Source of the DNA: an uncultured Desulfuromonadales bacterium
GTDB lineage: Bacteria; Desulfobacterota; Desulfuromonadia; Desulfuromonadales; Geopsychrobacteraceae
Direction of reading: 5' to 3'
DNA: 35,543 nt
NCBI GenBank assembly: GCA_947259685.1
Contig: CAMYNC010000016.1
Location: forward strand, 1-35,543
Shown here: piece by piece, positions 1 to 24,417 of the stretch
Position numbering within the stretch: the first letter of the stretch is position 1
Layout: the number at the start of each line of letters is the position of its first letter
Translations under genes and position numbers: made by a program
Notes under the pieces: generated by a model
What the model was told of the DNA's origin: nothing
Seen by the model: the letters and a program-made list of their open reading frames with translations, nothing else
Databases searched by the model: none

Positions 1-122
1 TTTTAACCGGCGAATCTAACGGAATCAGTCCCCCGAGTCAAGCACTTACGGAGCTTTTTAAAATTAAAAAAAACGCCGTAATTTTGGGACATTGTTTTAG
101 TTTTAAAGGGACACCAGGAAGC

Positions 123-1218
123 CTACTTTCCTTGCAATAAATAGGCTTCAATAAAACCTTCCAAATCGCCATCGAGGACGGCATCAGTGTTGCCGACTTC
201 ATGACTGGTGCGATGATCCTTGACCATCCGGTAAGGGTGCAATACATAAGAACGGATCTGACTCCCCCAGCCGATCTCCTTCTTATCCTCTGAAAATGCC
301 GCGGCCTCCTCTTCCTTCTTACGCATTTCCTGCTCGTAGAGCCGGGCCTTAAGCTGCTTCATCGCAGTCGCCCGGTTTTTGTGCTGGCTCCGTTCGTTCT
401 GGCAGGCAACGACAATTCCACTTGGGATATGGGTAATTCTGATCGCCGAGTCGGTCTTGTTGATATGCTGCCCCCCTGCGCCGCTGGCCCGGAAGGTGTC
501 GACCTTGATATCCTTTTCTTCGACTTCGACCTCGATAGAATCATCCAGCTCCGGAAAGACAAACACCGAGGAAAAAGAGGTGTGGCGACGAGCACTCGAA
601 TCGTATGGAGAAATCCTCACCAAGCGGTGGATGCCATTTTCCGCCTTCAGGTAGCCGTAGGCGTACTCTCCGTCAACGCTGAAGGTCGCACTCTTGATCC
701 CCGCTTCGTCTCCTGCCTGACATTCCGTCAATTCCGTCTTGAAGCCCTTACGCTCGCAATAGCGCAGGTACATCCGTAACAGCATTTCCGCCCAATCCTG
801 GGCTTCGGTGCCACCTGCCCCGGCATTGATCGTCAGGGTCGCGCAGCTGGCATCATGCTCACCGGAAAGCATTCGGGCGAACTCCATTTGCGCCACCTGC
901 TTCTCGACCTCCGGCAGCAGTTCATTGACCTCTTCCAGGGTGTCCTGATCTTCTCCCTCTTCACCCAGCTCAATCAGAACCTGAAGATCCTCCAACTCGC
1001 TGTTAGCTGTTTCCCAGGACTCAACAATTTTCTGCAACCCGGTCCGCTCACGCAACAGATCCTGAGCGGCATCACCCTGATTCCAGAAATCGGGCTGAGC
1101 TATTTCTGCCTCAAGCTCTGAGACCCGTTCCTTTTTGGCAGGAACGTCAAAGATACCTCCATAGTTCCTGAAGCTTTTCTTGTAATTCTTTGACGGTCTC
1201 TTTGGGTTCACGGAACAT
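123..1218 (-). CDS. prfB: Peptide chain release factor 2 (RF2), expressed by programmed +1 frameshift
   Basis: RF2 recognises UGA and UAA stop codons and triggers peptide release on the ribosome. The conserved GGQ motif is present (SGAGGQHINKTDS), as is the RF2 block GIHRLVRISPYDSSARRHTSF. I start the gene at ATG 1218-1216, nine bases after AAGGAG. The zero frame reads MFREPKETVKELQEKL..WRYL (23 codons) and hits TGA at 1149-1147. Shifting +1 after CTT continues as DVPAKKERV and gives 364 residues, the usual RF2 length. A simple open-reading-frame start about seven bases further in gives a nonsense N-terminus (MNPKRPSKNYK), so annotation without the shift is wrong. RF2 normally autoregulates: when it is scarce the UGA is read slowly and the shift is favoured. 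One oddity is that the usual SPF stop-recognition tripeptide reads SPY (codons at 603-611). Confidence 0.95.
1146..1160 (-). promoter_or_regulatory. prfB programmed +1 frameshift site
   Basis: On the minus strand the bases read GGAGG TAT CTT TGA C. This is the canonical RF2 slippery site: an internal Shine-Dalgarno-like GGAGG three bases before CTT, an in-frame UGA, and a C as the next base, which makes UGA a weak terminator. The ribosome slips from CUU to UUU and continues with GAC. The amino acids before and after the site match RF2 only if the shift is made. Confidence 0.95.
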
Positions 1219-1333
1219 CGTTACAATCTCCTTAAGATAGTTTGAATAGCCGCTAAGTATAACTTAAATAAAAACGGAAAAACAGCCCGGGTTTCGAGCG
1301 GCAACCGCAAGGCGATGGCGCAAGAGCCTGTCG

Positions 1334-1387
1334 CAGAACAAAAACGTTCAAGGCGACTCATGCACCGCCGTAAAGGTTTTCGTTCTG
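1334..1387. repeat. Imperfect 54-bp inverted repeat between fur and prfB
   Basis: The outer arms are CAGAAC-A-AAAAC and GTTTTC-GTTCTG (11 of 12 bases complementary). They enclose an inner GGCG...CGCC pair, so the RNA could fold into one long interrupted hairpin. It lies downstream of the fur stop and upstream of prfB, which are both transcribed leftwards. There is no T-tract, so it is not a typical intrinsic terminator. It may be a dispersed intergenic palindrome or part of the prfB leader. I see no other copy in this window. Confidence 0.4.
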
Positions 1388-1430
1388 GGTATAAAGCCTG
1401 TTTGAAGGTAGAAAAGGATCAAGCAGAGGA

Positions 1431-1859
1431 TCAGTTGTTGCTGCAGTCAGTGCAAAGGCCATAAAGCTCAAGACGATGGGTCTGAATGGTGAAATTATGC
1501 TCAGCGGCGACTTTTTCCTGCAGTTCTTCGATCTCAGGTTCTTCGAACTCGATGATCAGACCACACTCCCTGCAAACCAGATGGTCATGATGCTCCTGAT
1601 CGGTCACCGGCTCAAAGCGGGTCTGGCCATCGCCAAAATGGCGCTCGGCAGCGATGCCGCACTCTGCAAACAATTTCAGTGTCCGGTGCACGGTCGCATA
1701 GCCGATCTTCGGGTAGGCGGCGCGTAATTTCAAATAGAGCTCTTCCGTTGAATAATGGGAATCTGACTCGAGAAAGGCTTTAAGGATAAGCATTCTCTGG
1801 TTGGTATTCTTCAGCCCCTTGCGGTTGAGGAACTCGGTAAAATGGCTGATCTGGTCCAT
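1431..1859 (-). CDS. fur: Fur-family metal-responsive transcriptional regulator
   Basis: A 142-residue protein of typical Fur length. The N-terminal winged helix (about 1-80) contains the recognition region ...GYATVHRTLKLF. The C-terminal dimerisation and metal domain has HHDH at 90-93, C96-x2-C99 and a second C136-x2-C139 pair, matching structural zinc sites of Fur proteins. A GGAGG lies 14 bases before the ATG, a rather long spacing. A Fur-box palindrome overlaps its promoter, which supports Fur itself over Zur or PerR, although these cannot be separated by motifs alone. It is a single gene, divergent from glgC. With iron it would repress iron-uptake genes and probably itself. Confidence 0.88.
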   Translation of the reverse strand: MDQISHFTEFLNRKGLKNTNQRMLILKAFLESDSHYSTEELYLKLRAAYPKIGYATVHRTLKLFAECGIAAERHFGDGQTRFEPVTDQEHHDHLVCRECGLIIEFEEPEIEELQEKVAAEHNFTIQTHRLELYGLCTDCSNN

Positions 1860-1885
1860 AATCTCGCTTCATTCCTCCATAACAC

Positions 1886-1900
1886 TGAAAATGATTTTCA
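1886..1900. promoter_or_regulatory. Fur box (7-1-7 palindrome) upstream of fur
   Basis: TGAAAATGATTTTCA is a perfect 7-1-7 inverted repeat and matches the minimal Fur box TGATAATNATTATCA at all but one position per half. It overlaps the end of the fur -10 element and lies 27 bases upstream of the fur ATG, as expected for autorepression. It could also influence the divergent glgC gene. Confidence 0.72.
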
Positions 1901-1928
1901 AAATAGTCAGCTGAAGGGCAAAGGTCAA
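1900..1928 (-). promoter_or_regulatory. Predicted sigma-70 promoter of fur
   Basis: On the minus strand TTGACC (1928-1923) and TATTTT (1905-1900) are separated by exactly 17 bases. The transcript would begin inside or just after the Fur box and give a short leader before the GGAGG ribosome-binding site. Confidence 0.6.
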
Positions 1929-2056
1929 GGAAAAAGTTTTCCTGATTTTCCGATATAAATATTTAATATATTTAGCCGATTCTAAGGTTGCTAAAGAGCC
2001 ATTCTAAAGGTTTAATTGTAGCTACTAAACTATATAACCCTCAAGGAGAATGCTCA

Positions 2057-3340
2057 ATGGTCCAACAGCCGAACGAAAATGTGATCTATCGCTATGTCAG
2101 CCAGTTGACGCGAGATACTCTGGTGTTGATTCTTGCCGGCGGCCGCGGCTCCCGACTCTACGAATTAACCGATTACCGCGCCAAGCCGGCGGTCCATTTC
2201 GGCGGCAAGTATCGGATCATTGACTTCCCCCTCTCCAACTGCGTCAATTCCGGTCTGCGCCGCATCGGCATTTTGACCCAGTATAAATCTCATTCCCTGA
2301 TTCGACATCTGGTCCGCGGCTGGAGCCACTTCAAGCAGGAGTTGAATGAATATGTCGAGATCCTGCCTGCTTCCCAGCAAAACTCTGAAGACTGGTATCA
2401 GGGAACCGCCGATGCCGTCTATCAGAATTTAGATATCATTCGGGCGACTCGCCCCAAATACATTATGATCCTTTCCGGCGACCATATTTACAAAATGGAT
2501 TATCGGCCGATGCTTCTTGAACATGTCGAAAAAGGTGCAGATATGACTGTCTCCTGCCTGGAGGTACCTGTTGAAGAAGCCGCCGGTGCCTTCGGGGTTA
2601 TGAGTGTCGACGACCAAAGCCGGGTTCTCGACTTCACCGAAAAACCGCAGAAGCCTGCTGAAATACCCGGTAAACCGGGCCTCACCCTGGCTTCCATGGG
2701 CAACTATATATTCAATACCGAATTTCTTTTTGACCTGCTTGAAACCGATGGCCAGAATCGAGATTCGGACCATGATTTCGGGAAAAATATTATCCCATCA
2801 ATCATCCATGACCAAAAGGTTATCGCCTACCCCTTCCGGGACCCGGAAACCGGCGGGCTGGCCTACTGGCGCGACGTAGGCTCACTGGATGCCTTCTGGG
2901 AAGCCAATATGGAGATGATTTCGCCAGCGCCTGAATTGAACCTGTACGACCAGAACTGGCCGGTTTGGACTTATCAACGCCAGTTGCCACCGGCGAAATT
3001 CGTCTTCGATGATGACGATCGGCGCGGCGCGGCAGTCGATTCAGCCGTCTCCGGGGGGTGTATCATTTCAGGCTCCAAGCTGAGAAAATCGTTGCTATTT
3101 TCCGATGTCAGAATTCATTCTTTTTCCTCCATCGAAGAAACCGTCATTCTGCCGGAAAGTGAAATTGGTCGGAACTGCAAGATCAAGCGGGCGATTATCG
3201 ATCGTGGCTGCAAGGTTCCGCCCGGCACCGAGATCGGTTTCGATCCTGAGCAGGACAAGGCGAATGGTTTCCGCATAACCTCAAAAGGGGTCGCGCTGGT
3301 GACCCGCAAAATGCTGGGGCAACCCGGCGGCTACGATTGA
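2057..3340 (+). CDS. glgC: Glucose-1-phosphate adenylyltransferase (ADP-glucose pyrophosphorylase)
   Basis: Makes ADP-glucose from ATP and glucose-1-phosphate, the committed step of bacterial glycogen synthesis. The nucleotide-binding loop [15 protein letters not shown], the sugar-phosphate region [20 protein letters not shown], the GDHIYKMDY motif and the YWRDVG motif are all present. A C-terminal left-handed beta-helix region follows ([14 protein letters not shown]...IDRGC). I choose ATG 2057 because AAGGAG lies eight bases before it. An upstream in-frame ATG at 1988 would add 23 residues with no homologous counterpart and no ribosome-binding site. The result is 427 residues, close to the 431 of E. 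coli. No other glycogen genes are adjacent. It is divergent from fur and ends at an intrinsic terminator. Confidence 0.95.
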
Positions 3341-3609: not shown

Positions 3610-4428
3610 CTAGCCACCAGCAACATAGGGAATCACAGCGGCCGGTTCAAGAATCCGGAAGGTAAAGGATTCGCTGTAGTACAGCTTAACCTTCTCGGCG
3701 GTATGGGCTTCATAACCGACCGAAAGATCCTGGCCGATGATCAGTTCAAAATCACCGCCTCGGGATGAAACCATAAAGGCCTCATCGGCATAATCACCGG
3801 TGAGATAAGGACTGAGTACCACGGTGCCACCGAGGATATTTTCCGCCTGCATCTTCACCGGATAACCCTGCACGTGAGCTGACATCTTACTCCATAACTT
3901 CGGGCCGACCACGAAGGAGTATGGCCCTTCAATGGAACGCTCAGCAAAGATCGTGACCCCCTGAGCTATGGTCTCCAGCAACTGTTCCGGTTGCGAACCG
4001 ATGGTCAAACACTCGGAGCCGGTGCAGACCTTCAGGCCTTTGATGTTCGCTTCATTTAAACCATGGTAAACCACCATCTCTTCAAATATGGCGATTTTCC
4101 GCGCAGCATCCTCGAGGCTGGAAAGATCGACATCTTTCGCTCCGCGGACCACATTGTCCATTTCTTTGATATCCAGATCGAAAGGGATACGTGCTTCAAC
4201 CAGGTGATGAACCTTATGGATTCCATAGTTCAACCCACCCTTAGGTTGTTTCTTCGGATAATCGAGTCGCCCCTCGGGCACGCCGGGAAAATCGGTGCCC
4301 ATCGGACCACTGACATCGACCACTTTCCGAGCCGAGAGCATGGCGGTCAGGGTGCGGGTTGCCTGCTGATCGATCTCAATCCAGGCTTCGGCCGGAATCG
4401 GCGCCAGTTCTCGCTTCAAAATATCCAT
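3610..4428 (-). CDS. Encapsulin shell protein (family 1, HK97-fold nanocompartment)
   Basis: Self-assembles into an icosahedral protein shell that encloses a dedicated enzyme. The 272 residues align along their whole length with the Thermotoga encapsulin type: N-terminal LKRELAPIPAEAWIEIDQQA, the DVSGPMG segment, VDLSSLEDAARKIAIFE, IEGPYSFVVGP, and the C-terminal SRGGDFELIIGQDLSVGYE followed by ESFTFRILEP. The length fits a small T=1 (60-mer) shell, which is an inference. AAAGGAG lies five bases before the ATG. The gene sits 48 bases downstream of a hemerythrin carrying a loading peptide, so the two form one operon and the cargo is clear. It ends at its own terminator. Confidence 0.95.
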   Translation of the reverse strand: MDILKRELAPIPAEAWIEIDQQATRTLTAMLSARKVVDVSGPMGTDFPGVPEGRLDYPKKQPKGGLNYGIHKVHHLVEARIPFDLDIKEMDNVVRGAKDVDLSSLEDAARKIAIFEEMVVYHGLNEANIKGLKVCTGSECLTIGSQPEQLLETIAQGVTIFAERSIEGPYSFVVGPKLWSKMSAHVQGYPVKMQAENILGGTVVLSPYLTGDYADEAFMVSSRGGDFELIIGQDLSVGYEAHTAEKVKLYYSESFTFRILEPAAVIPYVAGG

Positions 4429-4476
4429 AAAAACTCCTTTGGGATCTATCTATAAAGTTTCACTGATCGTTTTCGC

Positions 4477-4989
4477 TCACTCTTTCAAACTCCCAATTCC
4501 CAGGCCGATGGCCGCCGACCTGTTGGCTTTGGCGCCCGAGGTATCAATGCCGCCGGGCACATTTGGCAGGCTGACATTCAAGAGTTTGTCCTTAGCTTCA
4601 AGAAATAGCTCCCCCAGGGTCACCAGATCTTGGGCAGCAAGCAGTTGCCGGGCCAGCGGAAAGACTTCAGCTTCTTCTTCATCAAGGTGATGAGCTGTGT
4701 ATTCGCCCAACCCTTCAACTTTTATCGGAAAGCGATCGTGCTCACGCGGAAAGTCTTCGGCATCTTTAAGAATCAACTCAATAATATGATGCTCGTTGAC
4801 GGCTTCAAGTGACGCATGCCTGGCAGATGAGACCTGCTCCAGCAAATCGTAAAAATATTTTTCTTCCATGGTGTGATGAACAACCAGATGGTGAATAAAC
4901 TCTTCGAAAATGGTCGGATCAGCTTCAGCTTGCTGGCCGAGTTGCCTTAATATTTGATGGTGTTCAACTAACGCATCGACAATATCCAT
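4477..4989 (-). CDS. Hemerythrin-like diiron protein with encapsulin-targeting peptide (encapsulin cargo)
   Basis: A 170-residue HHE-type hemerythrin domain (about 1-135). Histidine and carboxylate clusters expected to bind two irons are visible: H10-H11, H33-H34, H38-H39 with E42-E43, H67-H68, and H100-H101 followed by D103 and three glutamates. Then comes a flexible Gly/Pro/Ala linker (about 138-160) and a terminal GLGIGSLKE, which matches the known loading-peptide pattern L-G-I-G-S-L-K/R that docks cargo inside encapsulins. It is the first gene of the operon, 48 bases before the shell gene, with AAGGAG five bases before its ATG. Such proteins bind or react with O2, NO or peroxide through the diiron centre. 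The exact substrate here is unknown. Confidence 0.93.
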   Translation of the reverse strand: MDIVDALVEHHQILRQLGQQAEADPTIFEEFIHHLVVHHTMEEKYFYDLLEQVSSARHASLEAVNEHHIIELILKDAEDFPREHDRFPIKVEGLGEYTAHHLDEEEAEVFPLARQLLAAQDLVTLGELFLEAKDKLLNVSLPNVPGGIDTSGAKANRSAAIGLGIGSLKE

Positions 4990-5004
4990 AGAATCTCCTT
5001 GGAA

Positions 5005-5017
5005 TTGATTTAATCAA
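5005..5017. promoter_or_regulatory. 13-bp palindrome before the hemerythrin-encapsulin operon
   Basis: TTGATT-T-AATCAA is a perfect inverted repeat just upstream of the hemerythrin ribosome-binding site. It resembles an FNR/CRP-type half-site pair (TTGAT...ATCAA), but the spacer is three bases rather than the required four. It is an operator candidate for an unidentified regulator. Confidence 0.35.
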
Positions 5018-5168
5018 CAAGGTCCATCTTCGAGCCTTGGTCAATACAATACAACTGCTAGCCAGACAGGGACCGATTGCCTCTAATATGGTGTGAGTTT
5101 ATCGCAATTATTTGAGAAGAAAAGCTGGCCGGCTAAAACTGATTACACCGCTTCGTTTCGAAAAATAT

Positions 5169-5209
5169 TTCCGCCCGCACTTGCGGAATGATGGCTGCGG
5201 AAGGATAAT
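5169..5209 (+). promoter_or_regulatory. Predicted promoter with overlapping inverted repeat for the selenoprotein gene
   Basis: TTGCGG (5181-5186) and GATAAT (5204-5209) are 17 bases apart, giving a start site about 20 bases before the gene. An inverted repeat TTCCGC-N8-GCGGAA (5169-5188) covers the -35 box, and a further GCGGAA half-site lies in the spacer (5197-5202). This arrangement suggests repressor control. The regulator is unknown. Confidence 0.45.
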
Positions 5210-5239
5210 TACTTTGGACTTCAAGCTAAGGAGACTAAT

Positions 5240-5890
5240 ATGAGGTTTCAGCGAATTCTCTGCCTGCTGTTGGCATTCGGTCTGTCGGCAACACCTCTCT
5301 GGGGTCAGCCATCTGCGGCTGCAACCAAAATCCCGGATGCTCCCGAGAAGATCTGTCCGCTGCCGGTCGGCAGTGTCATGCCACAGATAAATCTCCAGAC
5401 CCTGGACGCCAAACCTTTTGACCTGAATGCGCAGTTGAAAACCAAACCGAGTATTTTGATCTACTTTCGTGGCGGCTGGTGACCTTACTGCAATCTCCAG
5501 TTGGGAGAACTGATCAAAATTGAACCGCAGCTGCTCAAACTTGGCTACCAAATCATCGCCATCAGCGCCGACAGCCCGGATTTTTTACGCCAAAGCGATA
5601 AACAGCATCAACCGAACTACCTCTTGCTTTCCGATAGCGACATGCAGGGAGCCAAAGCACTCGGGATTGCCTGGCAATTGAACAAGGAGAGGTACGAACA
5701 ATACAAAAACTATGGGATCAATCTGGAAGAAAAATCTGGCCAGACCCACCACCTGCTGCCGGTCCCGACCGCCTACGTGATTAATACCGATGGCATCATC
5801 AAGTTCGCTTACACCAATCCAGATCACCGCATCCGCATTAGTCCGGAAGTATTGCTGGCGGCGGCAAAGGCTGAAGCCGGGTCAGAGTAA
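5240..5890 (+). CDS. Exported peroxiredoxin-like (AhpC/TSA, thioredoxin-fold) selenoprotein, Sec at codon 81
   Basis: The reading frame runs from ATG 5240 (AAGGAG six bases upstream) to TAA 5890, 216 residues if the in-frame TGA at 5480-5482 is read as selenocysteine. Residues 1-23 are a signal peptide (MRFQRILCLLLAFGLSATPL), so the protein is probably periplasmic. The thioredoxin-fold core includes PSILIYFRGGW-Sec81-PYC84-NLQLGEL. Cysteine homologues of this peroxiredoxin-like family have CPYC here, so Sec replaces the catalytic cysteine in a U-x-x-C redox motif. Homology continues in frame after the TGA (IIAISADSP, VPTAYVINTDGIIKF), which rules out a true stop. A SECIS-like hairpin follows the TGA. 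The predicted role is thiol/selenol peroxide reduction or disulfide exchange. It is divergent from the encapsulin operon. Standard gene callers would split it in two. Confidence 0.88.
5480..5512 (+). promoter_or_regulatory. UGA selenocysteine codon with bacterial SECIS hairpin
   Basis: TGA is at 5480-5482. The bases CAGTT (5498-5502) and AACTG (5508-5512) form a perfect five-base-pair stem around the loop GGGAG, with the loop guanines starting 21 bases after the UGA. This satisfies the loose bacterial SECIS rule of a short stem-loop with a G early in the apical loop, 16-37 bases downstream. A competing stem TCTCC/GGAGA also exists. SelB, selenocysteine tRNA and SelA lie outside the window. 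Confidence 0.75.
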
Positions 5891-5930
5891 GGTCACTCTA
5901 AGGACATCAGCGGCCGGCGATAGATTCTGC

Positions 5931-6683
5931 TCAGCCCAGGGAGGGTGGGAAAATCTGGTAAAGATAACCGGTCAGCCGGGTGAACAGATCGAAAAATAAC
6001 AGGACACCTGCGATCATCAACAGAATCCCGGTACCGATTTCCACGATACGGATATGCTTCTTGAAACGATCAAAAAAGCTAAGAAAGGAATGGAACAATA
6101 TCGCGGAGATCAGAAACGGTACTCCCAGCCCGAGAGAATAGATCGAAAGCAGCAACACGCCCTGCCCTACGCCACCGGCACTGCTGGCGGCAATCGCCAG
6201 AATCGCCCCGAGAATCGGTCCGATGCAGGGTGTCCAACCGGCAGCAAATGCCACTCCAACCAAAAAGGTGCCGATATACCCGGTCGGCTTGTTTCTGACG
6301 TGAATGCGCTTCTCACCCAGCAGAGCGCCGATATGAAAAAGTCCGCTCAGATGAAGCCCAAACAGGAAAATCAGCACACCGCCGGCTTTCTGAATGACCC
6401 CCAGCCATTCGCGCATATGCATCTGAAAGGAGCCTGATGCCAGTCCGGCAAGGGCTCCCAGGGTGATAAAAACGACCGAGAACCCGGCGATGAACACCAG
6501 CGAATGACTGATGACCGTAAACCGGACTTTGGCACTGGCATGGGCGTCTTTAAGTTCGCCGAAAGAAAGTCCCGAGATATAGGTCAGGAATGACGGGATC
6601 AGCGGTAGCACACAGGGGGAAAAATAGGAGAGTAAGCCTGCAGAAAAAGCAATCCAGATCGTGACGTCGGTCCCTGCTTCCAT
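5931..6683 (-). CDS. ccdA: CcdA/DsbD-type transmembrane thiol reductase
   Basis: A 250-residue membrane protein with about six hydrophobic segments. It carries the two family cysteines in LSYFSPCVLPLIP (C24) and GWTPCIGPILGAI (C153), which move reducing equivalents from cytoplasmic thioredoxin across the membrane. It is the last gene of a five-gene operon and lies 18 bases after the TlpA-like thioredoxin, its likely periplasmic electron acceptor. Together they would keep periplasmic cysteines reduced, for example for cytochrome c maturation. GGAG lies six bases before the ATG. It is convergent with the selenoprotein gene, with no obvious terminator in the 40-base gap. Confidence 0.9.
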   Translation of the reverse strand: MEAGTDVTIWIAFSAGLLSYFSPCVLPLIPSFLTYISGLSFGELKDAHASAKVRFTVISHSLVFIAGFSVVFITLGALAGLASGSFQMHMREWLGVIQKAGGVLIFLFGLHLSGLFHIGALLGEKRIHVRNKPTGYIGTFLVGVAFAAGWTPCIGPILGAILAIAASSAGGVGQGVLLLSIYSLGLGVPFLISAILFHSFLSFFDRFKKHIRIVEIGTGILLMIAGVLLFFDLFTRLTGYLYQIFPPSLG

Positions 6684-6701
6684 TCTCGCTCCTGCTCTTG
6701 C

Positions 6702-7241
6702 TTAACCGTTTAACAGAAAATTGAGCATCGTGGTGGTTTTGGGTGACAACCAGTCGCGGCCGCCAATAATCTTCTCAACGACAGTGCCATTACGATCGAT
6801 AACGAAGGTTTCCGGGAAACGGAACACCTTGTAGCTATTCTGCACCTCGGCAGCGGTGTCAAGCAGGATCGGAAAGGTATAGTTTTTCCCCGGCAGAAAC
6901 CGGCTAACAGCCTGATATCCCTCGGCTTCGACATTGACCGCCAACAGTACCAGGCCCTGATCTTTATAGCGCTGATGCAGCTGTTCCATCGATGGCATCT
7001 CTTCGCGGCAGGGTGGACACCAGGTGGCCCAGAAGTTTAATAGTACAACTTTACCGCGAAATTGGCTGAGAGTCACCTCATTCCCCTGCATGTCGGTCAG
7101 GGAAAAATCGGGGGCCGGATGGTTGACGCCGTCCCCCACCACCGACGGCTGAGCATTCGTCGAAGAGTCTTCACAGCCAGCCAGTAAGCCGAGGCAGAGC
7201 AGAGAAAAGCAGCAGAGTTTCAATAATGTTAGAAAACGCAT
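6702..7241 (-). CDS. TlpA/ResA-like lipoprotein thioredoxin
   Basis: Begins with a lipoprotein signal (hydrophobic stretch then LLAG-C23), so the mature protein is lipid-anchored in the periplasm. The thioredoxin domain has NFWATWCPPCREEMPSM, where the two cysteines form the redox pair, and a cis-proline region FRFPETFVIDRNG. ATG 7241 is preferred over the adjacent upstream TTG because GAAGGA lies eight bases before it. It is 179 residues long and about 20 bases downstream of the DegP gene. Being immediately before ccdA, it is the likely substrate of that protein, acting in cytochrome c or general disulfide reduction. Confidence 0.88.
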   Translation of the reverse strand: MRFLTLLKLCCFSLLCLGLLAGCEDSSTNAQPSVVGDGVNHPAPDFSLTDMQGNEVTLSQFRGKVVLLNFWATWCPPCREEMPSMEQLHQRYKDQGLVLLAVNVEAEGYQAVSRFLPGKNYTFPILLDTAAEVQNSYKVFRFPETFVIDRNGTVVEKIIGGRDWLSPKTTTMLNFLLNG

Positions 7242-7264
7242 CAACAGATTCCTTCTCTTGGCTG

Positions 7265-8575
7265 TCAGGGTAGTTCGATCAGATAAGCCCGATTGCCACG
7301 GACAACAGTAAACTCCAGCGGCAAGCGCCCGAGTCGATCCTCCATCAGTTCGGCAAAATCGCTCAGCCTACTCACCTCGCGCCGATCGACCTTTACCAGC
7401 AGATCCCCAGGGCGAATTCCGACTCTGTCCGCCGGTGAGCCGGTCTCAACCTTGGCGACCACCAGGCCGGCTCGTCCCTGATGCAGATCAAAGCCGAAAG
7501 TTCGCCGAGTATAGGCCATCAGATAGCCTTCGGGCAAGGCGGATAAGGCGACGTTTTTTTCTATCATTTGCAAACCTCTTAATACCGAAAGCTGCAATCG
7601 ATCATCGGGTGTGTAGGTCTGCAGTAGGGAATAAAAATGTTCGGCCGAGGAGATGGGCACACTGTCGATAGCGAGAATCACGTCCGCAACCTGTAGCGCT
7701 GCTTTTTGCGCCGGTGAATCGGACAGAATTTCTTCAACCAGAATACCCCCTTCGCCATGCGACCTGACAAAAGAATCCCCCACCTCTCCCGGCACCACGC
7801 CAAGAAAGGCCCGGCGCACCCGGCCATGCTCGATCAGATCGTTGAGAACCCGTTTGGCCGTATCGATCGGGATAGAAAAACCAATCCCTTGGGCCTGACG
7901 AGCAATAGCGGTGTTGATGCCGATCAGTTCGCCGTTGATATTGATCAACGGCCCCCCAGAGTTGCCCGGATTGATTAACGTATCGGACTGAATAAACACC
8001 GAGGAATAAGTGTCTGCCACCTGGATTCGACGTTGGGTCGAACTGATAATTCCGGTGGTAATCGAGTGGCCCAGGCCGAGCGGGTTGCCGATGGCAATCA
8101 CCGACTCGCCAAGCAGTAAATCATCGGAACGGGCCGGTTCTAAAAAAGGGTAACTGCCCGGTTCTTCAATCTTCAGCACGGCCAGATCGATCCGGCTGTC
8201 TTTGCCAACCAGGATCGCCTCAAGCTCTTTGCGCCGATCCGGCAGGGCGACAAAGATCCGCGAGGCCTTATTGATGACATGGGCATTGGTGAGAATATAG
8301 CCATTGGCATTGATGATCACTCCAGAACCGAGCGACTGAGTCTGGTAGCTGCGGGCAGGAAACATCTCGGAAAAAAACTGGTCGAAGATGGAATCGCCAA
8401 AGCCGAAAAACGGGCTGCTGCTCCGCCGAACGATTTGTTCGGTGCGGATATTCACCACAGCGTCGCGCACCTTGGCAACCGCTTCAACCACCGCTGTCCG
8501 CCGTTGGGCGGCCTCCGCCGGTGTCAGCGGGAATAGACAGAGTAAAAAAATTAACAATAAGCGAGAAAACAACAT
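7265..8575 (-). CDS. Periplasmic serine protease, DegP/HtrA family
   Basis: An ATP-independent protease/chaperone for misfolded envelope proteins. After a signal peptide (MLFSRLLLIFLLCLFPLTPA) the catalytic triad is visible: H99 in ILTNAHVI, D130 in RIDLAVLKI and S206 in NPGNSGGPL. Two PDZ domains follow, one around AFLGVVPGEV...DVILAIDSVPI and one around GLVVAKVETGSPADRVGIRPGDLLVKVD. I place the start at ATG 8575 because AGGAG lies ten bases before it and this gives a clean signal peptide. The upstream in-frame ATG at 8608 has no ribosome-binding site and overlaps the response regulator. It is 436 residues long. Its place right after a kinase-regulator pair suggests envelope-stress control. 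Confidence 0.9.
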   Translation of the reverse strand: MLFSRLLLIFLLCLFPLTPAEAAQRRTAVVEAVAKVRDAVVNIRTEQIVRRSSSPFFGFGDSIFDQFFSEMFPARSYQTQSLGSGVIINANGYILTNAHVINKASRIFVALPDRRKELEAILVGKDSRIDLAVLKIEEPGSYPFLEPARSDDLLLGESVIAIGNPLGLGHSITTGIISSTQRRIQVADTYSSVFIQSDTLINPGNSGGPLININGELIGINTAIARQAQGIGFSIPIDTAKRVLNDLIEHGRVRRAFLGVVPGEVGDSFVRSHGEGGILVEEILSDSPAQKAALQVADVILAIDSVPISSAEHFYSLLQTYTPDDRLQLSVLRGLQMIEKNVALSALPEGYLMAYTRRTFGFDLHQGRAGLVVAKVETGSPADRVGIRPGDLLVKVDRREVSRLSDFAELMEDRLGRLPLEFTVVRGNRAYLIELP

Positions 8576-8588
8576 TGGAACGACACTC

Positions 8589-9938
8589 CTAAGAGGTTTG
8601 AATCGCATATTTTTCTAACCGATAGAGCAAGGTATGCCGGGGAATGCGCAAAAACGCTGCCGCCTTGGTTTTATTGCCACTGCAGCGCCGCAGAGCCTCT
8701 TCAACCGCTTCTCGTTCCAGGTCTTCAAGGGAATACCCTTCTTCCGGCAGGTTGAGGACACCGCCATTTTGCACCCGCGGACGACCGATCCTCAGCGGCA
8801 GGTCGACCATTTCCAGCAGATCTCCCTGACGCAGAATCAGCATCTGCTCGACAACGTTCTCCAGCTCACGCACATTTCCCGGCCAATCGTAATTCTGCAA
8901 ATGTTCAATCACCTCAGCAGCAAACCTGACCCCGACATCGGCCTGATGTTTGCGCAAAAAGAAATCGAGCAGCAGCGGAATATCCTCTTTACGTTGCCGT
9001 AGCGGCGGCAGAGCCATCGGCACCACCGCCAGCCGGTAGTATAGATCTTCGCGAAAACCGCCGGTCTGCATCGCCTCTTCCAGATCGCGGTTGGTCGCTG
9101 CGACCACCCGCACATCGACCTGCTCGGAGATTCCACCGACCGGTTCAAACTCCTGTTCCTGCAAGGCCCGCAACAATTTCGGCTGCAGGTCGATCGGCAA
9201 TTCGCCGATTTCGTCCAGAAACAGGGTACCACCATCAGCCAGGGAAAACTTGCCCTTGCGATCTTTGACCGCGCCGGTAAAAGAGCCTTTAATATGGCCG
9301 AAAAGTTCGCTCTCGATCAGGTCCTTGGGAATCGCCGCGCAGTTTACCGCGACAAAGGGGCCATCGGCACGAGTCGAGCCACGGTGCAGCGCCTTGGCTA
9401 TCACCTCTTTCCCACTACCGCTTTCACCACTGATCAGCACCGAAGCCTGACTGACGGCAACCTTTTCAACCCGCTGCAATAGCTGTTGCATGGCCGGAGC
9501 CTGACCTATGATCTGGCCGTTGTCGATACTGCCGGCCAGGGCATCTTTGAGCTGGGTATTCTCTTTCCGCAGTTTGCCGAATTCAAAAGCCTTGGCCACT
9601 GCCAAACTGAGCTGATCGCGACTGAACGGCTTGGTCAGGTAATCATAGGCTCCCGACTTCATCGCTTCGACGGCTTTTTCGACCGAGCTGAAGGCGGTAA
9701 TTATAATCACCAGGGTCTGCGCGTCCAGCTCAAGGACTGCATCGAGAACTTCATATCCACTCATTTGCGGCATCTGGACATCGGTTATCACCAATGGCGG
9801 CCGATGGCGGCGGAACAATTCGATCCCTTCCTCGCCATTGGCTGCGGTCAGCACCTGGTAGCCAGCTTCCTGCAGGTTGAATTCGGTGACCCGCCGCAGC
9901 GAAACATCATCGTCTATCAACAGAACCTGTTTTGCCAT
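8589..9938 (-). CDS. Sigma-54-dependent response regulator (NtrC family)
   Basis: Three domains in 449 residues. A receiver (1-120) has D53 in VITDVQMP and the conserved lysine in YLTKPF. An AAA+ domain has Walker A GESGSGKE, Walker B GGTLFLDEIGELP and arginine fingers in FREDLYYRL. A Fis-type helix-turn-helix lies at the C-terminus (NKTKAAAFLRIPRHTLLYRL). The sigma-54 contact loop is GSFTGA instead of the usual GAFTGA. Its start overlaps the kinase stop by one base (TAATG), so the pair is translationally coupled. A sigma-54-like promoter and a palindrome lie upstream of the operon, a possible target. Confidence 0.93.
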   Translation of the reverse strand: MAKQVLLIDDDVSLRRVTEFNLQEAGYQVLTAANGEEGIELFRRHRPPLVITDVQMPQMSGYEVLDAVLELDAQTLVIIITAFSSVEKAVEAMKSGAYDYLTKPFSRDQLSLAVAKAFEFGKLRKENTQLKDALAGSIDNGQIIGQAPAMQQLLQRVEKVAVSQASVLISGESGSGKEVIAKALHRGSTRADGPFVAVNCAAIPKDLIESELFGHIKGSFTGAVKDRKGKFSLADGGTLFLDEIGELPIDLQPKLLRALQEQEFEPVGGISEQVDVRVVAATNRDLEEAMQTGGFREDLYYRLAVVPMALPPLRQRKEDIPLLLDFFLRKHQADVGVRFAAEVIEHLQNYDWPGNVRELENVVEQMLILRQGDLLEMVDLPLRIGRPRVQNGGVLNLPEEGYSLEDLEREAVEEALRRCSGNKTKAAAFLRIPRHTLLYRLEKYAIQTS

Positions 9939-11074
9939 TAAGTCTCCTCAGCAGCGTAGCGATGATCTGCCGGCTGTAAAATCAAGGTAAAGACCGTGCC
10001 CCCCTCAGGCGGGCAGTCGACACTGATCCGCCCGCAGTGGTTGCGAACAATTCGGTGGGTGATCGCCAGGCCAAGGCCGGTGCCATCATCTTTGGTGGTA
10101 AAAAAAGGATTAAACACTTTATCCAGATATTCTTGCGGAATCCCCGGCCCGTTGTCCTGAAAGACCATTTCAATCTGTTCTTGAGTGGCCGCTGTCCTGA
10201 TCCACAGCTGCCCAGCAGGCGGCATCGCTTGCAGGGCATTGAGGACCAGATTCAAAAAAACCTGCTTGAACTGTGCCGCATCTCCAATAGCGGTCGGCAG
10301 GGGCTGCTCATCCCAATGGACTGAGATCCGTTTTTTAAGCGCCGGCGGCTGAGTTAATTGCAGGACTTCTTGCAGCACCTGGTCGGGGCGGAAATCATTT
10401 TTCTCAGTATTCTTTGCCCGCGCGAAACTGAGAAAATCCTCCAGCACCTTGTTCAGGCGATCAACCTCACTGATAAGAATCTGGGAAAATTCAGCGTAGC
10501 GGTTTTCCGGCGGAAAGGCGTCGCGCAAAATCTCAGCCGTGCCACGGATCGACCCCAGCGGGTTACGGATCTCATGGGCCATCCCGGCGGAAAGCTCTCC
10601 TAAGGCCGTCAGACGGTCGGCCTGCCGCAGTTGATCTTCAATCTCCAGAATCAGGTCGGCCTGCTGCCGGAGCTTATCGTAGCTGGCGGTCAGCCGCTGA
10701 GCAGATTCTTCGGCACGCAGCCGCTGCCCATGCTCTTTCGATGACAAAAACCCGGTGAGAAAGCCGATGGTATTGTAGAGCAGAATCTCCAGATACTGTT
10801 CAAGATGGCTGGATGGCAAGTGCCCCCACTGAAACAGCACATGCGGAGCATAGAGAAAAGAAACCAATAATCCGGTTCCGACTCCACCACGAAGCGAAAA
10901 CCAGATCCCCCCCAAAACAATCGGCAGATAGTAAAGGCGCCGATAGATATCATGGACGGTGGAATGGTGCGTAGCGGTCAGATAATGCAACGCAGTGATT
11001 GCGCCGACCATCAGCAGGAGCGCTGCCAGGCGTAGCAGCTGTTGCCTATCCATTTTCAACGGTAATCCGATCAA
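9938..11074 (-). CDS. Membrane sensor histidine kinase
   Basis: 378 residues. About four hydrophobic segments lie at 11-110 with short loops, so there is no large periplasmic sensor domain and the signal is probably membrane-borne. A coiled coil (115-155) leads to the dimerisation domain with phospho-accepting H167 in AGMAHEIRNPLGS. The ATPase domain has NALQAMPP (N box), DNGPGIP and GTGLGLAI. I use TTG 11074, with GGAG six bases upstream. The internal ATG at residue 8 has no ribosome-binding site. It is first in the operon kinase, regulator, DegP, TlpA, CcdA. It is NtrB/ZraS-like in architecture. Confidence 0.9.
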   Translation of the reverse strand: MIGLPLKMDRQQLLRLAALLLMVGAITALHYLTATHHSTVHDIYRRLYYLPIVLGGIWFSLRGGVGTGLLVSFLYAPHVLFQWGHLPSSHLEQYLEILLYNTIGFLTGFLSSKEHGQRLRAEESAQRLTASYDKLRQQADLILEIEDQLRQADRLTALGELSAGMAHEIRNPLGSIRGTAEILRDAFPPENRYAEFSQILISEVDRLNKVLEDFLSFARAKNTEKNDFRPDQVLQEVLQLTQPPALKKRISVHWDEQPLPTAIGDAAQFKQVFLNLVLNALQAMPPAGQLWIRTAATQEQIEMVFQDNGPGIPQEYLDKVFNPFFTTKDDGTGLGLAITHRIVRNHCGRISVDCPPEGGTVFTLILQPADHRYAAEET

Positions 11075-21658: not shown

Positions 21659-23959
21659 CTATTCAGCACCCTGCTTGAGCCTGCGGATCTCTTCACGGAT
21701 CATCGATTCCGCCAGGTCAGGCACCACCTCCCAGGCAATCTGCTCAAGCATTTCGTTGGCAAGCTTTTCAATCATCGGCCCAGCCACCTTGGTTACTACT
21801 TCCTTGAGTTCATCTTCGGAAAGTTTACGCAGCTGCTGTTCCACCTGCTCGATAGGAGCATCCAGAGACGTCTCCGACTCAGTAGTCCTGCTGCTGGTGG
21901 CGGCGACCCCGGCCGCCACACCCGCAACAGCAACACTGGCAGTCCCTGCAAGGCTGGCAACGGCAGGCTCCGGCTCATCCTCTTCTGCTGCAGACGCATC
22001 AAAGAAAAAGCCTTCGTCCTCTTCAACTTCAGCAGCAACAATCTCTGCCGCCGGGTCTAGCTCCAGTTCCTGAACCGAGTCAATAAACCCATCTTCGCTC
22101 GCCGCGGCTTCAACATCAGCCTCGGAGGACAATTCTTCCTCTTCGACAGCTGGAAAGCTGTCTTCGAGTTCACTCAGCTGTTCGTCTGCCTCGTCATCCG
22201 CTTCGGTAGCAGCAACGAAAGCATCCTCTTCGTCCTCCTCAACTTCCGCAACAGCAACAATTTCGGCAACCTGCTCGAGCTCCTGAACCGGCTCGCCAAT
22301 CTCTGCTTCGCTCCCAGCCTCGCCAACCGCAGTCTCGGAGAACAATTCTTCCTCCTCGACAGCGGGAAAGCTGTCTTCGAGCTCGTTAAGCTGTTCGCCT
22401 GCCTCGTCATCCGCTTCGGTAGCAGCGACGAAAGCACCCTCTTCGTCCTTCTCAACTTCCGCAGCAGCAACAATTTCTGCCGCCGGCTCGGGGACCTGAA
22501 CCGGCGCGACGATCTCTTCTTCGCTCCCAGCCTCGTCAAGCGCAGTCCCAGAGAACAATTCTTCCTCTTCGACAGCTGGAAAGCTGTCTTCGAGCTCGTT
22601 CATCTGTTGGTCTGTCTCGTCATCTGCTTCGGTAGTGAGGACAAAAGCCTCATCTTCTGTCTCATCGGCGGTAAACAGCTCATCACCTCCATCGGCAACA
22701 GCACTGTCCGGCAAAGGTTCTTCCGCCAAAATATCCTCTTCAGCCAAATCGAGAATTTCTTCATCAGCATCCAGGTCCGCTTCGTCCAGGGCAACAACTT
22801 CGGCCAAAGCAGCTTCCTGCTCAGGCAAGTCGAGAATTTCCTCCTCAGCAACCAGGTCCGCTTCTTCGAGGGCAACCTCTTCGGACAAAGCTTCTTCCAG
22901 CTGGGGCAAGTCACTCAATTCCTGGGCCGACTCATCAAGGACCAAGTCCTCATCAGCGGGGGATTCTGCAATCAGTTTTTCACTTGCCAGCAGCGGCGCC
23001 ACCTCAACTGGCTCCGGCTGTAAATCTTCAATTTCAGCAAACTCAGATAACTCGGCACTGACCGATTCCTCAACCTGTCTATCTCCAGGCTCCAACAGAT
23101 CATCATTATCACTGGCAAAACTATCGAAGGCACTGGATACCGCAGCCTCAGGCTCTGTCTCTTCGGCCGTAGCGAAACCAATAGATTCAGCATCGATATT
23201 AAGATCGGTTTCGGCTTCGGAAGTATCCAGTTCCTCAATTGGAACCTCTCCACTCCTCAGTTCTTCGGCTGCAGACAGAATAAGCTCGTCCGACCCTGGG
23301 TCAGTTTCTGCCGCAACAGGCTCCAGCTCTTCCTCCTCAAAAGAGACAGCATCCCAAATATCCTCAGTCGCTGCTTCTTCAGCCGCCACCTCCGGCAGTT
23401 CAGCATCAATCTGCCCCAAGCTGGACTCAGTGGCCTCGGGTTCTGCTTCAGAACTGGATGCTATCGCTGCTGCGGCAGACGCCAAAACAGGTGCCAGCGT
23501 TTCAACCGGCGCTTTCTCCTGCAGCGGTTCCGCCATTTCTTCTGCAGGTTGGTCGACCAGTGATTCCTCTGCCGCATCCAATCGAACTGGTTCGGCAGCT
23601 AGCAATTGCTCAACCTTATCGAGCAAAGCCTGAGATTCGAACGGCTTCGACAACCAGCCATCGGCTCCAACAGCCTGAGCCCGCTCCTCATCGAAATGAT
23701 CGAAGGTTCCCGGCAACAACATAACCGAGGTTTCAGCGAGACGAGGATTGCTTTTTAATGCCTGACAGAGCTCAAAGCCATCCTTCCCAGGCATCGAAAC
23801 GTCGGCGATCACCAGGTCGGGCAATTCCTGCTCAGCTTTTTCGTAGGCATCATCGCCATTGTCGGTCACCAATAATTGATAGTCTTCGGTGGCGAAGATA
23901 ATACCGATGACTCTCTGAATCGTCACACTGTCATCGGCTAGCAGCAGCTTTTTTGTCAT
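21659..23959 (-). CDS. Receiver-domain protein with long acidic repeat linker and conserved C-terminal helical tail
   Basis: 766 residues. An N-terminal receiver (1-120) has acidic D9-D10, phospho-accepting D53 in VIADVSMP and the lysine in GWLSKPF. The next roughly 580 residues are almost all Glu, Asp, Ala, Ser, Val and Leu, with no aromatic core, and contain tandem repeats of 71 and 27 residues. The final 70 residues form a helical, conserved-looking domain (EQVEQQLRKLSEDELKEVV, then IAWEVVPDLAESMIREEIRRLK). There is no DNA-binding or enzymatic domain, so it probably acts by protein contact or localisation. ATG 23959 follows GGAGG at five bases and overlaps the preceding CheW gene (ATGA). 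Receiver-plus-acidic-linker designs occur in polarity and chemosensory proteins of myxobacteria, an analogy only. Confidence 0.85.
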   Translation of the reverse strand: MTKKLLLADDSVTIQRVIGIIFATEDYQLLVTDNGDDAYEKAEQELPDLVIADVSMPGKDGFELCQALKSNPRLAETSVMLLPGTFDHFDEERAQAVGADGWLSKPFESQALLDKVEQLLAAEPVRLDAAEESLVDQPAEEMAEPLQEKAPVETLAPVLASAAAAIASSSEAEPEATESSLGQIDAELPEVAAEEAATEDIWDAVSFEEEELEPVAAETDPGSDELILSAAEELRSGEVPIEELDTSEAETDLNIDAESIGFATAEETEPEAAVSSAFDSFASDNDDLLEPGDRQVEESVSAELSEFAEIEDLQPEPVEVAPLLASEKLIAESPADEDLVLDESAQELSDLPQLEEALSEEVALEEADLVAEEEILDLPEQEAALAEVVALDEADLDADEEILDLAEEDILAEEPLPDSAVADGGDELFTADETEDEAFVLTTEADDETDQQMNELEDSFPAVEEEELFSGTALDEAGSEEEIVAPVQVPEPAAEIVAAAEVEKDEEGAFVAATEADDEAGEQLNELEDSFPAVEEEELFSETAVGEAGSEAEIGEPVQELEQVAEIVAVAEVEEDEEDAFVAATEADDEADEQLSELEDSFPAVEEEELSSEADVEAAASEDGFIDSVQELELDPAAEIVAAEVEEDEGFFFDASAAEEDEPEPAVASLAGTASVAVAGVAAGVAATSSRTTESETSLDAPIEQVEQQLRKLSEDELKEVVTKVAGPMIEKLANEMLEQIAWEVVPDLAESMIREEIRRLKQGAE
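22021..22659 (-). repeat. Three tandem 213-bp coding repeats in the acidic linker
   Basis: The same block recurs at exact 213-base steps: its GACAGC.GGAAAGCTGTCTTC string starts at 22145, 22358 and 22571. Each unit encodes 71 residues including FVAATEADDEA, ELEDSFPAVEEEEL and AAEIVA. The copy nearest the protein N-terminus is the most diverged. Boundaries are approximate. The DNA similarity suggests recent duplication, and copy number may vary between strains. Confidence 0.85.
22749..22910 (-). repeat. Two tandem 81-bp coding repeats in the acidic linker
   Basis: A 27-residue unit, EEADLVAEEEILDLP-like, is repeated with an 81-base period (the string TCGAGAATTTC starts at 22749 and 22830). 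A third, degenerate unit (LDLAEEDILAEE) follows in the protein. Confidence 0.7.
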
Positions 23960-24417
23960 TGATGCCTCCCCGCACCACAAGATTTGGCCCCCGGTATCTG
24001 GAGTGCCTGAATCAAGCTCATTATCAGAATATCGACATCCAGGATAGCGAAGATATTCTGCTGGTAGTTAAATTCACCAGATTTGGCTGTCGCGTTCATT
24101 TCTGCAGAAAAACTAATCTGCCCTTTTGTTTCTGGAACAATGCCGACAGTCGCATCAGCCGGCAAAGCGATCATGCCTGCTTCAGATTCCATCAGCACGG
24201 CATATTCAGCAAGAGAACCCGCAGCACCATGCTTAAACAGCAACTCATGCAGATTAAGCAGCGGCACCAGGCGTGCATCATCAACCAGAACCGACATCAC
24301 TCCATGCGGCAGCTTCGGCAATAAAAAGCAACGAGAATGATGCTTTATCCGAAGCAAACGGGACAAAGGCACCGCATAACAGAATCCCGCAAACTGAAAC
24401 AGGCCAAGCCGGCTCAA
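23956..24417 (-). CDS. CheW-like protein (first of two, atypical)
   Basis: 153 residues with a CheW-type beta-sheet pattern: FQFAGFCYAVPLSRLLRIKH at the start, a VMSVLVDDARLVPLLNLHELL middle, and AVLMESEAGMIALPADATVGIV. Such proteins link receptors to CheA kinases. The match to canonical CheW is weak, so the name rests partly on the neighbouring gene. It starts at TTG, overlapping the stop of the upstream CheW gene (TTGA), and its own TGA overlaps the ATG of the receiver protein, so all three are translationally coupled. Confidence 0.65.
   Translation of the reverse strand: MSRLGLFQFAGFCYAVPLSRLLRIKHHSRCFLLPKLPHGVMSVLVDDARLVPLLNLHELLFKHGAAGSLAEYAVLMESEAGMIALPADATVGIVPETKGQISFSAEMNATAKSGEFNYQQNIFAILDVDILIMSLIQALQIPGAKSCGAGRHQ

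Follow-up and report, generated by a model that had tools for sequence, protein, structure and literature searches.

Does the lone in-frame TGA in a peroxiredoxin-like gene of an uncultured Desulfuromonadales bacterium end its translation, or is it read as selenocysteine (Sec)? The gene lies on the forward strand at positions 5240..5890 of the window, which is the whole stretch of DNA analysed here (35,543 nucleotides of contig CAMYNC010000016.1, assembly GCA_947259685.1). A single frame of 216 codons extends from the ATG at 5240 to the TAA at 5888-5890, with one TGA at 5480-5482 (codon 81), and the coordinates given by an earlier reading made from the letters only (the sequence-only reading) were correct. 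Taken together, the evidence makes it very probable that the gene encodes an exported selenoprotein with Sec at the TGA.

Translation with table 11 cuts the frame at the TGA into open reading frames (ORFs) of 80 and 129 amino acids. These are the two broken fragments expected by the sequence-only reading, but ordinary gene finding shows the second half only. The joined frame, with an AhpC-TSA/Redoxin domain from residue 43, scores 74 bits against PF00578 (AhpC-TSA; Pfam cut-off 26) versus 37.7 bits for the post-TGA half alone, and homology extends over both sides of the TGA; the first half alone matched no Pfam family. The predicted fold is that of a peroxiredoxin bearing a thioredoxin-like UxxC site (U81-P-Y-C84, within GGWUPYC), in which the proposed Sec81 and Cys84 (5489..5491) sit at the start of helix 82-100. 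The earlier term "peroxiredoxin-like" therefore suits the fold, but not the active site, which resembles that of ResA and thioredoxin rather than the TxxC or TxxU of true peroxiredoxins. A Shine-Dalgarno-like AAGGAG (5228..5233) stands 6 nt upstream of the ATG, and a hydrophobic leader of about residues 1-22 (5240..5305; hydropathy 3.02 over 10 residues) is predicted to be a likely type I signal peptide, with a conjectural cleavage site.

A protein search over approximately 5.8 billion proteins returned 1431 matches, of which 120 were listed. With the query's own row (C written for U) excluded, Cys occupies the TGA column in 108 of the 109 full-length listed matches and Trp in one, and all 109 keep the downstream Cys of CxxC. 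This alignment check bears out the placement of the TGA at the catalytic Cys of the family. The remaining 11 listed matches, among them the window's own product, are fragments of 127-129 residues that start seven codons past the TGA site; they are the only listed matches with identity of at least 70%. Decay of these frames is unlikely, since the 11 fragments share a mean column identity of 85%, more than decaying frames would retain. The other fragments look like further selenoprotein genes cut by gene finders.

The same TGA recurs in other genomes. The genome_contigs scan was queried with the post-TGA half, so as not to favour Cys forms, and 80 loci were kept, with TGA at this codon in three and TGC or TGT in the rest. 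The three are L001 (Deltaproteobacteria MB1D_Bin_3; 64% identity), L002 (Nitrospirae MnB_6; 46%) and L007 (Desulfobulbaceae; 45%). In the class of L001, 58 of 277 genomes had a match at E<=1e-15, and 30 fetched loci gave 31 aligned rows, 25 with a stop at this codon and six with none; one of the 25 carries an additional stop 36 codons upstream. The close group comprises four TGA rows (L097, which is L001, L098, L099 and L100; 52-64%) and a Cys row, L101 (52%), and the phylum of L002 contributes L134 as a further exported TGA row. Scans at E<=1e-40 of the G003 class (1 of 257 genomes) and of the G002 phylum (2 of 395, a sample of a larger group) gave only already known loci apart from L134, and no relative of the gene appeared in the viral contigs scanned. 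At locus L099 (G126:C120:38763-40087) two TGA-containing Prx-like (Prx, peroxiredoxin) genes stand in tandem, one with a leader and one with none, possibly two adjacent selenoproteins for two compartments.

In a tree of 112 rows, a fully supported split separates an exported branch (86 rows, 8 with Sec), to which the window belongs, from another branch (26 rows, 21 with Sec). Besides the window, seven genomes of the exported branch carry the same-codon TGA, over 45-64% protein identity. In six of these seven relatives conservation is higher over residues 82-125 than over residues 37-80 (75% versus 55% in the nearest, L097), the exception being L133, which is L007 (43% versus 50%); the downstream decay that the sequence-only reading had named as contrary evidence is thus not seen. 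The signal peptide that it had proposed recurs as a hydrophobic start in all eight exported Sec rows, in which the best 10-residue hydropathy is at least 2.46; in the 21 Sec rows of the other branch it is at most 1.26, where a script picked the start codons and a few rows are truncated.

In bacteria the Sec insertion sequence (SECIS) forms a hairpin shortly after the UGA, and at least one of the first two bases in its loop is a G. In the window a SECIS-like hairpin, UCUCC-AGUUG-GGAGA, occupies 5494..5508; its AGUUG loop, with G in second place, begins 16 nt past the UGA, and it is a putative site of SelB binding. The earlier description of a five-base-pair hairpin at 16 bases holds for the stem length and for the loop, but the stem begins at 11 nt and the loop is not really G-rich. 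The hairpin is identical over 15 nt in the window, L097, L098 and L099, although third positions nearby vary; L100 has C-G in place of one U-A pair, a paired change, and the nearest Cys relative is without the hairpin. In a scan that required a stem of at least 4 pairs and a G within the first two loop bases, -5 kcal/mol or better was reached by 27 of 28 distinct TGA sequences versus 17 of 82 Cys sequences. When synonymous codons were shuffled without weighting, the energy was attained in at most 5% of cases for 26 of the 28 versus 4 of the 82. Under codon-weighted shuffles, 21 of 29 TGA sequences had p<0.05 versus none of 83 Cys sequences (78 of these in the exported branch). Taken alone, the window's hairpin would be weak evidence; it is the comparison with relatives that lends it strength.

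Genes for Sec decoding were sought in 16 relatives' genomes: the three of L001, L002 and L007 together with 13 more from the L001 class, namely the nine nearest to the window by ValS and four with close matches to the gene. The ValS of the window is 91% identical to that of G086 and 87-88% to those of six more, all in this class. Both selA and above-cut-off selB are present in all 16, tRNA-Sec exceeds the gathering score in 15 (missing in G079) and selD was found in 14 (missing in G086 and G087). Because the selB model at a loose E-value matched all 14 control genomes, only two of them above the cut-off, selB was scored by cut-off. The absence of selC or selB, which the sequence-only reading had held would count against it, is accordingly not seen in these relatives, the tRNA-Sec of G079 excepted. 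The window itself contains no tRNA and no Rfam family above the gathering score. The best selD match in each of the 14 genomes holds a single TGA, and SelD there looks like a selenoprotein itself.

Several observations weigh against the selenoprotein reading. The counts of Sec genes describe relatives' genomes and not the window's own, and the TGA rows are mutually related, so that their numbers overstate the independent evidence. By itself, the window's hairpin gives z -0.76 against dinucleotide shuffles and p 0.086 against synonymous shuffles weighted by window codon usage (0.035 unweighted). In the weighted test eight of the 29 TGA sequences miss p 0.05, seven of them in the exported branch, where L100 alone of the eight TGA rows falls under it, and the hairpin of L007 (L133) is weak, at -1.4 kcal/mol. 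With single scores weak in this branch, the argument there rests on the shared, compensated hairpin. Additionally, a close copy is missing from all nine genomes nearest by ValS: G050, G082, G078 and G087 hold a distant match only, and the other five, including the sibling G086, have none at E<=1e-15. The prfB, fur and glgC proteins of G086 are 98.7-99.7% identical to those of the window, and its hemerythrin-ccdA gap measures about 225 nt versus 941 nt in the window, where the selenoprotein gene lies inside; short scattered aligned blocks in the G086 gap form no convincing gene remnant. In G078, G077, G083 and G049, fur adjoins ccdA, with neither encapsulin nor selenoprotein gene between. Absence from the nearest genomes marks the gene as dispensable and variable in this lineage. 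Finally, the evidence favours neither peroxidase nor disulfide activity.

The lack of the gene at the same site in G086 shows that its absence is tolerated, as would suit a pseudogene inactivated by a nonsense mutation at the TGA. Such a dying gene is nevertheless highly improbable given the same TGA in the seven other exported-branch genomes, the frame open to its end with a better-conserved downstream half (L133 excepted) and the column identity kept among the fragments. An error for TGC or TGT in sequencing or assembly might be suspected, as the match list gives the window's own fragment from a single contig (58,445 bases) and the reading is unreplicated; its recurrence in independent assemblies from different bacterial groups leaves this scarcely credible.

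The 129-residue ORF begins at a TTG (5501), and the database holds 11 products of 127-129 residues among the 120 listed, so a real stop followed by a restart could yield two separate working polypeptides. The second of these would, however, be missing both the UxxC site and the initial strands of the Prx fold, and the first matches no family, so that we regard this arrangement as very unlikely. A stop-free frame cannot of itself discriminate Sec from a reassigned TGA, and Trp does occur in the single exceptional full-length match, but the near-invariant Cys at this column argues against Trp or another residue. The window also encodes prfB with a frameshift at an in-frame TGA; prfB makes RF2, the release factor that ends translation at TGA, and the chance of reassignment is negligible. 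This prfB (about 1140-1220, minus strand) has the usual programmed frameshift, with frame 0 ending WRYL-TGA and the +1 frame continuing FDVPAKK.

Sec decoding thus remains the preferred reading, and Prx-like UxxC selenoproteins of PF00578 are themselves already published, as passages of several papers describe (PMC1088965; PMC2398784; PMC9312934; PMC13188914; PMC1794560). The class also appears there as "Prx-like protein" (Sargasso Sea paper) and "Prx-like 1" (GOS paper). Like the window protein, the Prx-like thiol:disulfide oxidoreductase selenoproteins belong to PF00578, carry Sec in UxxC and not TxxU and have common Cys homologues, and passages of the same sources list them for Geobacter and other Deltaproteobacteria (PMC13188914; PMC1088965; PMC2398784; PMC1794560). 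The window's branch differs in its leader and in its fully supported separation from the leaderless Sec branch, a distinction drawn within our tree. The addition made here is, as judged from sequence, this exported branch, which stands apart from the Sec branch of the class whose members have no leader. Among the titles and abstract openings listed by literature searches, none dealt with an exported Prx-like selenoprotein, which is not proof that none is published, and the passages seen of PMC13188914, PMC9312934, PMC2398784 and PMC1088965 contain none on such a protein. Nor does the word "periplasm" occur in PMC1794560; secreted serine proteases are named as selenoproteins in a passage of PMC2398784.

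On the same side of the tree are exported Cys peroxiredoxin-like/AhpC-TSA proteins (CPYC; Bacteroidota, Verrucomicrobiota and others), with leaders in the Cys rows printed. They share both active-site positions and at most 54% identity with the window among full-length listed matches, but have Cys for Sec and no hairpin that passes the weighted test. True Sec peroxiredoxins (TxxU; PrxU, NF040737) and PrxQ/Bcp are set apart by their active sites: the SPVC Cys of 2cx3 aligns with Cys84, not Sec81, and Sec81 falls where the TxxC motif has its T/S (as given in a passage of PMC13188914). In place of the PxxxTxxU motif of the true Sec peroxiredoxin the window has RGGWUPYC, and NF040737 is absent from its NCBIfam matches. 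Similarity to SelL-related redox proteins (NF040769) is weak, at 36.6 bits, far under the curated cut-off of 120 bits. The Sec proteins of the window, L098, L109 and L121 reach no NCBIfam model cut-off.

The Sec/Cys label changes six times on the best tree, and the well-supported (starred) branches force at least four changes; a single Sec origin inside the exported branch is possible on these sequences. The window and L097 form a group (support 92/91) on a branch without a star. A further Cys, Cys39 (5354..5356), lies in an [IV]CP[LV] motif present in all eight exported TGA rows versus 3 of 78 exported Cys rows. A link of this trait to Sec is conceivable, yet the Cys relatives L101 and L004 also carry the ICPL Cys; both share an unresolved fork with the exported Sec rows, and shared descent explains the motif equally well.

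In the organism, SelB carrying Sec-tRNA would attach to the 5494-5508 hairpin, and the ribosome would decode the UGA at 5480 as Sec. The leader would then direct export and be cleaved off, and the protein would fold as a peroxiredoxin whose UxxC pair is Sec81 and Cys84. Sec81 could be the nucleophile that attacks a peroxide or disulfide and Cys84 the resolver through a Se-S bond, with re-reduction by a periplasmic thioredoxin-like protein, perhaps the adjoining TlpA/CcdA pair. More tentatively, the exported branch may have acquired Sec separately from the leaderless Prx-like selenoproteins, as a CcdA/TlpA-fed periplasmic selenoperoxidase or reductase in which Cys39 works with UxxC, encoded by a single gene moving between phyla; we consider this combination doubtful.

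Automatic annotation loses this protein, as the database holds the post-TGA half without the active site, and two of the 11 listed fragments bear the name "peroxiredoxin". Such proteins would be picked up by a family model built on the exported UxxC branch. With both Sec and Cys versions of a single exported enzyme, the branch can also serve as a test set for the question of why some bacteria retain selenium in that enzyme.

Converging on the gene is a CcdA-like DsbD_TM protein (5931..6683, minus strand; PF02683, 59.7 bits), a possible electron supply, and next to it a TlpA/ResA-like thiol-disulfide oxidoreductase (6702..7244, minus strand; assigned from family matches) is a possible partner. 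Neither these nor the window's encapsulin and hemerythrin were found at E<=1e-8 in the 9-19 kb around seven other TGA loci (L145-L147, L149, L001, L002 and L007) or around the Cys locus L148. Adjacency in a single genome is thus the whole basis for the electron-supply idea.

On the other side, at 3610-4989 (minus strand), a Family 1 encapsulin shell gene (NF041155, 261.8 bits) stands next to that of the hemerythrin-domain protein, whose C-terminal GLGIGSLKE resembles an encapsulin cargo peptide. This pair is present in G086 and was not found in the fur-ccdA slot of G078, G077, G083 and G049. DNA identity to G086 is 96.7% over window positions 1-3338 (prfB-fur-glgC) and falls sharply to 77.5-80.3% over 3621-11061, with a glgC-encapsulin spacing of about 2.5 kb in G086 versus about 0.3 kb in the window. 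Recombination, or a joint in one of the assemblies, would account for these differences. Elsewhere in the window, a 773-residue ORF (21659-23980, minus strand) reads as a response-regulator-like start followed by long acidic, roughly repeated Glu/Ala-rich stretches.
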